From: an uncultured Gammaproteobacteria bacterium
GTDB taxonomy: Bacteria; Pseudomonadota; Gammaproteobacteria; Steroidobacterales; Woeseiaceae
Assembly: GCA_937899415.1 (NCBI GenBank)
Contig: CALBPI010000084.1
Span: 1 to 58,720, forward strand
Length of the DNA: 58,720 nucleotides
Reading direction: 5' to 3'
The notes beneath the pieces are model-generated. The model worked only from the letters and a program-made list of their open reading frames with translations. It was not told where the DNA came from and did no database searches. The translations under genes and the position numbers were made by a program. Positions 50,834 to 53,653 of this stretch are shown here, piece after piece; position 1 is the first letter of the stretch; every line of letters starts with the position of its first letter.

Positions 50834-51658
50834 ATGTCAATGCTAAGTTTTGAAAAAAAGTACAGGATCAAGGGAGGTACGCTGATCGGCGGCGACCTGT
50901 TTGATTTCTGGGCTGGCCCCTTCTACGTGGGCTTCTTTGGTGTCGCGGGCGCATTTTTCACGCTGCTCGGGGTAGCAATGATTTTCTTTGCAATCTCGCA
51001 GGGCCCTACTTGGGGCATCTGGGCGATTCACATTCCGCCACCGGACATCAGTTACGGGTTGTCATTGGCGCCCTTGCAGGACGGGGGGCTCTGGCAGCTG
51101 ATCACCGTCTGTGCCACGGGGGCCTTTGTGTGCTGGGCACTGCGCGAAGTGGAGATCTGCAGAAAGCTTGGGATCGGCTATCACGTCCCTGTGGCCTTCG
51201 GCACGGCGATCTTCGCTTACGTCACACTCGTCATCATCCGGCCGATCCTGATGGGCGCGTGGGGCTATGCGTTCCCCTACGGCATCATGTCGCACCTCGA
51301 TTGGGTCGCGAGCGTGGGTTACCAGTATGTGAATTTCCACTACAACCCGGCGCACATGATCGCGGTGACGTTCTTCTTCACGACGACACTGGCGCTCGCA
51401 CTGCACGGCGGTGCGATTCTGTCCGGCTCAAATCCGAAGAAAGGCAACACCGTCCGGACGGCCGAGCACGAAAACTCGTTCTTCCGTGATTCGATCGGTT
51501 ACTCGATCGGCTCACTGGGCATTCACCGCCTCGGCCTGTTCCTTGCGATCAATGCGGGGTTCTGGAGCGCGATCTGCATCGTGATCAGCGGCCCGCTCTG
51601 GGATAAGAGCTGGCCGGAATTCTGGGAATTCTGGCGTCAGATCCCGATCTGGAGTTAA
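50834..51658 (+). CDS. pufL: Photosynthetic reaction centre L subunit
   Basis: 274 residues, five membrane helices. Conserved ligands are His154 ([11 protein letters not shown], accessory BChl), His174 (YNPAHMI, special pair), His191 (LALHGGAIL, Fe) and His231 (LGIHRLG, Fe), which fit Rhodobacter numbering plus one. It binds the special pair, QB site and non-heme iron with PufM. Confidence 0.98.
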
Positions 51659-51661
51659 GTC

Positions 51662-52582
51662 ATGGCTGAGTACCAAAACCTCTTTTCCCGCGTACACGTG
51701 ACGGCGCCACCGGATGCTGGTGGACCGATCGATGAGTCCATGTTCAAGCGCGGCAAGCCGCGCATGAGCTACTGGCTGCAGAAGATCGGTGATGCCCAGA
51801 TCGGCCCGTTCTATCTCGGCGGACTGGGTCTGGCGTCTTTGATCTGTGGCTTCATCGCTTTCGAGATCATCGGCTTCAACTACCTGGCACAGGTGAACTG
51901 GGATCCCCTGGTATTCCTGAGGGAATTGCCCTGGTTGTCGCTCGAGCCGCCAAAAGCGGAATATGGATTGAGTATTCCGCCACTCAATGAGGGTGGCTGG
52001 TGGCTTCTCGCCGGGTTCTTCCTCACGCTTTCCGTGATGCTCTGGTGGCTGCGCATGTACCGTCGCGCCCGCGCATTGGGCATGGGTACCCACGTCGCCT
52101 GGGCGTTTCTCTCGGCGATCTGGTTGTTCCTCGTACTGGGCTTTTTCCGCCCGCTGGCGATGGGCACGTGGTCTGAGGCGGTGCCCTTCGGCATCTTCTC
52201 GCACCTCGACTGGACGCAGAACTTCTCGTTGCGCTACGGCAACCTGTTCTACAACCCGTTCCACATGCTCTCGATTGCGTTCCTGTACGGTTCGGCACTG
52301 CTGTTCGCCATGCACGGCGGTACGATCCTTGCCACGGACCGCTATGGTGCGCACCGCGAGATCGAGCAGATTGTTGATCGCGGCACGGCGTCCGAGCGCG
52401 GCGCCTTGTTCTGGCGCTGGACCATGGGCTTCAACGCAAGCATGGAGTCGATTCACCGTTGGGCCTGGTGGTTTGCGGTATTGACCACGCTCACAGGTGG
52501 CATAGGTATCCTCCTGACAGGGACCGTGGTGGACAACTGGTACCTGTGGGGTGTCGAGCACAACATCGCGCCGGCGTATTGA
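51662..52582 (+). CDS. pufM: Photosynthetic reaction centre M subunit
   Basis: 306 residues, five membrane helices. Ligands are His181 ([10 protein letters not shown]), His201 (YNPFHMLS, special pair), His218 (FAMHGGTIL, Fe), Glu233 ([10 protein letters not shown], Fe) and His265 (SIHRWAWW, Fe), with Tyr209 near the special pair. The length is that of RCs lacking the C-terminal cytochrome contact extension. No pufC follows. Confidence 0.98.
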
Positions 52583-52611: not shown

Positions 52612-52761
52612 GTGGACGACTTTCGCAGAAAGCTGATGGCACTCATGACGTTGGTCGTGGCATCGGCGGCCTGCATGGCGACGCCAAAAAGCCTTGCTGA
52701 CGACGGTGTGTCAGAGGGAGTCGAACGTGCTGCAGTGATCCAGCAACAGATACGGGACTAG
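52612..52761 (+). CDS. Small exported or membrane ORF after pufM
   Basis: 49 codons from a GTG at 52612, or 41 from the ATG at 52636. The N-terminus MDDFRRKLMALMTLVVASAA has a basic start and a hydrophobic core. It goes on to a possible signal cleavage (KSLA/DD) and a short polar tail ending VIQQQIRD. It lies 29 bases after pufM and before the operon terminator, where Rhodobacter has pufX and many purple bacteria have pufC. It could be a PufX/PufW-like small subunit, a remnant of the pufC 5' end, or chance. The ribosome site is weak. Confidence 0.4.
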   Translation: MDDFRRKLMALMTLVVASAACMATPKSLADDGVSEGVERAAVIQQQIRD

Positions 52762-52796: not shown

Positions 52797-52830
52797 AAAA
52801 GACCGGGCATCGCTGCCCGGTCTTTTTTTT
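52797..52830 (+). terminator. Intrinsic terminator of the puf superoperon
   Basis: Stem GACCGGGC (52801-52808) with GCCCGGTC (52815-52822), a 6-base loop and a run of eight T. A strong end for the bchC-puf transcript. Confidence 0.92.
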
Positions 52831-52834
52831 GGGC

Positions 52835-52872
52835 AAAAAAAAGCTGCACCACCTGCTGGCGGCGCAGCTTTG
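52835..52872 (-). terminator. Intrinsic terminator of the azurin gene
   Basis: On the minus strand, a GC-rich stem (AAAGCTGC, 52871-52864, with GCAGCTTT, 52847-52840) is followed by a run of eight T. It sits back to back with the puf terminator. Confidence 0.85.
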
Positions 52873-52894: not shown

Positions 52895-53653
52895 CTAGCC
52901 GATCGTGAAGCTGCCGCGCATGATCGACCAGTGGCCCGGGAACGTGCAGATGAATGCGTATTCCGTGTCGGCGTCAAGCACGCTCATGTCGACCGTCGTG
53001 GACGAGGTTTCCCCGCCGCCGATGAGCTGCGTGGCCGCGATGATGCGGTCGTCGCCAACGGGGACGTAGCTGTTGTCGATACCGGCGGTCATGCCCGCGG
53101 CGCCAACAGCATCGAGATCACTCTTCTTGACCAGGACCCAATTGTGGCCCATGGCGTTCTTGGGCAGCTTGCCCGTGTGCACGAGCGTAACAGTGACTTC
53201 ACTGCAAGACGCAGCGGCCGTGAGGCTGTCCGTGTTGTAACCGAGTCGGTCGCCTGCTTCGATAGTCAGCGCGCAGTCGCCGGAGGCGGCTGGCGCATCG
53301 CTGTCACCTGCAACCGTGGCCGCAGCGTCGTCGACCATGTCAGACACGGTCTCTTCGGCGTCAGCCATGGTGTCTTTCATATCATCGGCAGCGTCCGCCA
53401 TCGCGTCAGCGGCGTCGTCGGCCGCGTCTGCCACAGCGTCAGCCGCGTCATCGATTGCGTCCGTGGCAGCATCGGCGGCGTCTTCGACGACGTCCTGTGC
53501 GTCTTCGGCGACGGTATCTGCAGCGTCGTTAGCCGCCTCGGTTGCAGCTTCAGCAGCTGCCGAGCTGGGCGTCGCGTCGTCGCCCGAACCGCAGGCCACC
53601 AAAGTCATGCTCGCCGCCAATACCAGAAACGCAGGTATATTCTTGGTCAACAT
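52895..53653 (-). CDS. Lipoprotein azurin: blue copper domain on a long Ala/Asp-rich linker
   Basis: 252 residues. The signal peptide ends in the lipobox LVAC (Cys21); residue +2 is Gly, so outer-membrane sorting is expected. Residues 22-124 are a low-complexity Ala/Asp/Glu linker with repeats such as DAADAVADAADDAADAMADA, likely a long amphipathic helix. Residues 125-252 are a full azurin domain. Copper ligands fall at His170, Cys236, His241 and Met245, the same spacing as His46, Cys112, His117 and Met121 of Pseudomonas azurin, and the disulfide Cys127/Cys150 matches Cys3/Cys26. Convergent with the puf operon, it is a candidate electron donor to the reaction centre or respiratory carrier. 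Confidence 0.93.
   Translation of the reverse strand: MLTKNIPAFLVLAASMTLVACGSGDDATPSSAAAEAATEAANDAADTVAEDAQDVVEDAADAATDAIDDAADAVADAADDAADAMADAADDMKDTMADAEETVSDMVDDAAATVAGDSDAPAASGDCALTIEAGDRLGYNTDSLTAAASCSEVTVTLVHTGKLPKNAMGHNWVLVKKSDLDAVGAAGMTAGIDNSYVPVGDDRIIAATQLIGGGETSSTTVDMSVLDADTEYAFICTFPGHWSIMRGSFTIG

Follow-up and report, generated by a model that had tools for sequence, protein, structure and literature searches.

An azurin gene whose product is predicted to be lipid anchored and to carry a long Ala/Asp-rich helical tether adjoins a photosynthetic reaction center operon without pufC in an uncultured gammaproteobacterium of the family Woeseiaceae. Judging from sequence comparisons, we lean toward the reading that this mobile, membrane-confined, lipid-anchored azurin re-reduces the special pair of the PufC-less reaction center, replacing the HiPIP-to-PufC route. 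The window is the whole 58,720-nucleotide stretch of contig CALBPI010000084.1; its genome (3.94 Mb, 98.4% complete) is hereafter referred to as G000.

The tethered azurin gene and its puf locus

The azurin gene had been described as facing the puf operon, and its coordinates confirm that it is convergent with pufL and pufM, so that the two belong to separate transcription units. The features of the locus are as follows.

50834-51658, plus strand: pufL (TIGR01157, 421.7 bits)
51662-52582, plus strand: pufM, with no pufC behind it (TIGR01115, 530.8 bits; no PF02276 match in the genome)
52612-52761, plus strand: 49-codon ORF behind pufM with a GTG start, a signal-peptide-like beginning, and SAAC; examined as a possible pufC relic
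52800-52830, plus strand: hairpin with a 10-pair stem (52800-52823) followed by seven T, a puf-side terminator by eye
52840-52871, minus strand: putative terminator of the azurin gene, with a 14-pair stem and a T-run (terminator scan)
52895-53653, minus strand: tethered azurin lipoprotein gene, 252 amino acids (ORF; TIGR02695 azurin, 168 bits; PF00127)
52898-53281, minus strand: azurin domain, residues 125-252, with copper ligands and disulfide (profile, alignment, AlphaFold)
53282-53590, minus strand: Ala/Asp tether, residues 22-124 (composition, AlphaFold)
53591-53653, minus strand: type II signal peptide, residues 1-21, with lipobox LVAC and Gly at +2 (read from the sequence)

Upstream of pufL, pufB- and pufA-like reading frames were read by eye; puhA, bch, and crt genes also lie within the window, and a hisI-like gene and cysS lie beyond the azurin gene. 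The terminator-like site of the azurin gene and its opposite orientation indicate that it is not co-transcribed with puf. The hairpin on the puf side was recognized by eye and is missing from the terminator scan output. The 49-codon ORF is at most a possible pufC relic: when it was compared with eight PufC N-termini, between 1 and 239 of 500 shuffles reached its score. Matches of PufC frames to the window by tblastn, with E values down to 3e-16, were discounted as evidence for a relic, because the query frames reached back beyond the PufC start and covered pufM sequence.

The proposed azurin identity of the C-terminal 128 residues held up. They scored 168.1 bits against the NCBIfam azurin equivalog TIGR02695 (curated cut-off, 105.1 bits), the Pfam PF00127 match of the protein reached 63.7 bits, and the top PDB match was Alcaligenes azurin (2h3x_C; E 1.5e-41), on which the domain of the AlphaFold model superposed at 0.8 Å over 126 columns. 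In a 10-row alignment, the predicted copper-ligand positions (G169, H170, C236, H241, and M245) and the predicted disulfide pair C127-C150 were invariant or at least 90% conserved. We take the former to be azurin G45, H46, C112, H117, and M121, and the latter to be the azurin C3-C26 disulfide. The lipobox is present in the ORF translation as previously noted, with LVA preceding Cys21 and Gly following it. By the E. coli sorting rule, Gly at +2 (no Asp) would presumably direct the protein to the outer membrane. For the tethered azurin, we infer lipidation, the membrane of residence, the redox partners, and the direction of electron flow.

A residue count bore out the 103-residue Ala/Asp linker (residues 22-124). 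Counted from Cys21 on, the tether has 104 residues, including 38 Ala and 26 Asp, with 32 acidic residues against a single basic one. The AlphaFold model contains one helix of 84 residues (residues 31-114), which corresponds to ~126 Å at 1.5 Å per residue; block pLDDT was 84-96 up to residue 100 and then 65 and 48, and residues 116-124 form a low-confidence stretch. The preliminary description had envisaged a helix of ~150 Å. A single helix is indeed predicted, but it is shorter than that and weakly predicted beyond about residue 100. The further idea of a donor swinging between the two membranes did not gain support: outer-membrane sorting was assigned by the +2 rule, and the predicted helix spans ~126 Å. 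Taken at face value, the model suggests that an 84-residue helix with flexible ends plus the azurin domain could permit an approach across the periplasm; an inner-membrane anchor would be the simpler way for the protein to do the proposed donor job.

Hydrophobicity along the tether peaked at 98 degrees, which corresponds to an 11-residue amphipathic repeat, and none of 2,000 permutations gave as strong a signal. The best identity lag within the tether was also 11 (lags 3-29 tried). A weak Pfam apolipoprotein match, below the cut-off, agrees with an amphipathic helix. Tether-only matches (query positions ~8-112), which are low-complexity matches, occurred in many genomes of family f1, and at locus L315 a small stand-alone Asp/Ala lipoprotein resembling the azurin tether was observed; together these suggest fusion as the source of the tether. 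When a script was used to extract such stand-alone lipoproteins at eight loci (L308-L315), only L315 gave a clear case, and a stricter script gave none.

PufC losses and the distribution of tethered azurins

The puf operon had been described as lacking PufC, and this was confirmed genome-wide: PF02276 (PufC) had no match in G000, and as a positive control it matched in 50 of the 55 PF00124-positive genomes of the order. The five genomes without a match were G000, G004, G022, G098, and G149. The PF00124 match of G098 (L159:2655-3554) is psbA (TIGR01151, 639 bits), so that G098 was excluded as a puf genome; the gene probably entered the bin as a cyanobacterial or phage contaminant. In G149, pufM runs off the contig end, and one count of PufC against HiPIP omits this genome. 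The remaining tally is 54 puf genomes with three clear PufC losses (G000, G004, and G022). The puf neighborhoods were read directly for part of the 55 genomes and by match coordinates for the remainder.

A second case of the arrangement was found in G004, which belongs to a different family of the order (three genomes of that family were examined, one with puf). In that genome, pufM is followed 1.3 kb downstream by a tethered azurin gene in the same orientation (L137:12012-12704); a PEP-CTERM-like gene separates the two, and the PF02276 profile search found no PufC match in G004. Among the matches listed, the next-closest azurins to pufM were ~19 kb (G054) and ~24 kb (G122) away. The search for the architecture beside other puf operons that the preliminary description had called for found it in PufC-less G004, but the PufLM of G004 is sister to that of G000 (99/93; tree of 42 rows), so PufC loss and azurin adjacency may be one event. 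PufLM divergence between the two genomes is ~23%, and that tree joins the pair (94/95) to genus g2 of the window's family, which carries PufC.

A tree of 36 rows places the tethered azurins of G000, G004, and G109 together in one clade (98/98). G000 and G004 also encode plain azurins, which fall outside it. The amphipathic helical period recurs, at 98-99 degrees and at an equal level, in segments selected from the tethers of G004 and G109, and the residue at +2 of the lipobox Cys is Gly in G004 and Ser in G109. G109, whose tethered azurin gene lies away from puf, has both PufC and HiPIP. The simplest history is that the tethered azurin preceded PufC loss, which then occurred once, in the puf lineage of G000 and G004. 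The azurins of family f2, with Pro/Ala/Glu linkers, fall apart from this clade. With the f2 group separate in the tree, a single origin of all tethered azurins was not retained, although the AU test did not reject it (p 0.116).

PufC loss is not always paired with a tethered azurin, as indicated by G022 and by G513, the latter a phototroph of the same class but a different order. In G022, bch-like genes adjoin pufM, PufC is missing, and the only azurin is a plain one away from puf. For G513, the 19.9 kb covered shows no pufC next to pufM and no azurin. Both puf operons (L157 in G022 and L257 in G513) have no pufC behind pufM and no tethered azurin adjoining. A sample of the class contained, besides the window's genome, 368 genomes, six of them with puf; in five of these six, PufC lies behind pufM. 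We also looked for an altered PufC-docking surface on PufL/M and detected no shift of the periplasmic surface: G000 and G004 share two residues that are rare in the other sequences, one of the two lying in a periplasmic stretch (p 0.48), against 1-13 for nine other sister pairs.

The window protein was searched against 396 genomes of the order (54 with puf and 342 others), and a scripted lipobox pattern was used to sort 125 azurin loci, which came from 103 genomes; the tethered class was defined as a lipobox with a linker of at least 28 residues counted from the Cys. A few fragments (e.g., G093:C13 and G358) stayed unsorted, as did matches lacking the azurin domain and matches weaker than those listed. 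At least two loci (L232 and L248) were sorted although they are cut and their N-terminus is unseen, and the azurins of the non-phototrophs G385 and G220, which have a lipobox-like Cys eight residues before the domain, were counted as plain.

Tethered azurins were found in eight of the 54 puf genomes and in none of the 342 others (Fisher 7e-8, kinship ignored). The preliminary description had named equal occurrence in non-phototrophic relatives as an observation that would speak against it; in the genomes of the order searched, the tethered form was found in no such relative. Linker lengths, counted from the Cys, were 104 residues in G000, 67 in G109, 65 in G004, 55 in G017, 52 in G001, 51 in G031, 44-50 in G043, and 28 in G054. 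Azurin of any kind had no link with phototrophy (17/54 puf genomes versus 86/342 others; p 0.32). Among azurin-bearing genomes, the tethered form was present in eight of 17 with puf versus none of 86 without. In six of the eight genomes, the tethered azurin gene does not adjoin puf, and both PufC and HiPIP are present.

In 73 named loci from a separate scan, the 250 residues preceding the azurin-like domain contained no lipobox, and the available flanks contained no puf gene. Nine loci (L006, L015, L020, L172, L176, L183, L194, L198, and L211), all from one genus (f13 g24) and none of them in a puf genome, encode azurins behind an apparent uncleaved N-terminal transmembrane helix and a linker of ~50-60 residues; azurin anchoring by other means is thus not peculiar to phototrophs. 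All five f2 g13 phototrophs examined (L139, L154, L156, L165, and L173) encode Laz-like lipobox azurins with Pro/Ala/Glu-rich linkers, and PufC is present in them too.

Candidate donors to the special pair

A genome search gave no HiPIP match in G000 and none in G004. In a first set, 30 of 32 puf genomes had HiPIP, and the two lacking it were G000 and G004. Across the order, HiPIP was found in 291 of 396 genomes and, by reading of the list, in 49 of the 54 puf genomes; the view that it is absent only from G000 and G004 fell, since G152, G261, and G394 are puf genomes without HiPIP but with PufC. The association of PufC loss with HiPIP loss over 53 puf genomes (p 0.021) rests on two related genomes. 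HiPIP is not confined to phototrophs, and it is present in the other two genomes examined of the G004 family, both without puf. In G022, the HiPIP match contains two stop codons. A missing HiPIP in a draft genome carries less weight than a missing PufC at a locus covered by continuous sequence.

In the mechanism that we propose, the tethered azurin would be reduced at the periplasmic face by the cytochrome bc1 complex, which we assume here, and the lipid and helix would keep it near the membrane. It would then reduce P+ directly where PufC is absent and would reduce PufC where PufC is present. We suggest tentatively, from the genome comparisons, that the protein may be the physiological direct donor to the special pair, taking the place of both HiPIP and the tetraheme subunit, and may feed PufC elsewhere; the modeled tether would then either confine the carrier to the reaction center membrane or reach from the outer membrane. 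The donor role put forward in the preliminary description came through three tests, namely restriction to puf genomes among the genomes of the order searched, recurrence in G004, and no HiPIP match in either genome, and it is still a role that we infer.

HiPIP is the usual proteobacterial donor. The HiPIP/PufC donor side of gammaproteobacterial phototrophs has the same proposed job, re-reduction of P+, but neither component was found in the window's genome. Donors to purple reaction centers are described as c-type cytochromes or HiPIP, with auracyanin for tetraheme-bearing centers (available text of sources including PMC10991045). In a Rubrivivax pufC mutant, HiPIP or c8 reduces P+ directly at almost wild-type speed (available text of PMC10991045), and plastocyanin can replace cytochrome c2 in vivo as donor to the PufC-less reaction center of Rhodobacter sphaeroides and sustain phototrophy there (available text of PMC12493188). 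These two cases make a copper protein in the donor seat feasible. Among the titles and beginnings of abstracts listed from the open literature, none concerned an azurin donor to a purple reaction center.

Three known systems resemble the one proposed. The architecture of Laz consists of a lipobox, a low-complexity Ala-rich linker that is shorter than the one here, and azurin. The tethered azurin has this layout. Neisseria Laz is lipid modified, located mainly in the cell envelope, and periplasm facing (available text of PMC6277709), as is predicted for the tethered azurin; Neisseria, however, is a non-phototroph, whereas the window's protein has a helix-forming Ala/Asp 11-residue repeat and is encoded beside puf. 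Cytochrome cy of Rhodobacter capsulatus is likewise a mobile carrier held at the membrane, in its case through a long linker and a transmembrane rather than a lipid anchor, and it carries heme in contrast to the copper here. Auracyanins form a cupredoxin subfamily different from azurin, and the tethered azurin classifies with the azurin equivalog, with no auracyanin among 60 of its 91 PDB matches. The auracyanin of Chloroflexus and Roseiflexus is comparable as a type I copper protein and proposed carrier to a type II reaction center, proposed as such in Chloroflexus, and auracyanin B is membrane tethered (available text of PMC3150298). It differs in working with alternative complex III, and Chloroflexus has pufC whereas the window's genome is without PufC; the available text of PMC3150298 does not describe auracyanin genes as lying beside puf, which the tethered azurin gene adjoins. 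A tethered cupredoxin donor akin to auracyanin, cytochrome cy, and Laz would be the best reading of these comparisons.

The resemblance to Laz also underlies an alternative that we regard as unlikely, in which the protein is a lipoprotein of the general periplasmic chain, serving a peroxidase, reductase, or oxidase and helping against oxidative stress, with its adjacency to puf incidental. Enrichment of the tethered form in phototrophs would then be explained by their exposure to light and oxygen. Neisseria Laz, a lipid-modified azurin of a non-phototroph, is a donor to cytochrome c peroxidase (available text of PMC6277709), and its structure (3ay2) is among the PDB matches of the tethered azurin. 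The gene contexts of two relatives point the same way, since the f2 azurin of G017 is encoded near a SCO1/SenC gene and, by ORF reading, that of G109 lies among genes unrelated to photosynthesis. A general role would nevertheless leave two results to be accounted for: the tethered form was found in none of the 86 azurin-bearing non-phototrophs of the order, and the two genomes with neither PufC nor HiPIP matches both carry it adjoining puf.

The donor could instead be a cytochrome, with the azurin auxiliary or alternative to it. In G000 and in G004 there is a monoheme c5-like cytochrome (L277 on contig C88 and L283 on contig C23, respectively) whose N-terminal transmembrane-like stretch and linker give it a layout like that of cytochrome cy; both genomes also encode diheme c4-like cytochromes, those of G004 possibly split in part (all named by reading). 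Membrane-anchored c-type cytochromes are among the known mobile donors (available text of PMC10991045), and the anchored c5-like protein would be the likeliest candidate, the c4-like one being another; yet no cytochrome gene was recognized beside pufM in either genome, the place that the azurin gene occupies in both, and we judge a cytochrome donor to be rather improbable. We give hardly any credence to chance, that is, to a common small Asp/Ala lipoprotein that fused with azurin and landed beside a decaying puf operon. The tether-only matches in f1 genomes and the stand-alone lipoprotein at L315 would provide the raw material, and the losses of PufC and HiPIP could be signs of a phototrophy in decay. 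However, pufL and pufM are intact and score above their family cut-offs, photosynthesis genes (puhA and bch/crt) accompany them in the window, and the arrangement recurs in G004 despite the PufLM divergence.

If the proposed donor role is true, the tethered azurin would be a natural azurin donor, and it would show that the donor side of type II reaction centers can switch metal and also be tethered. The Rhodobacter engineered to run on plastocyanin (available text of PMC12493188) would then have a counterpart in nature.
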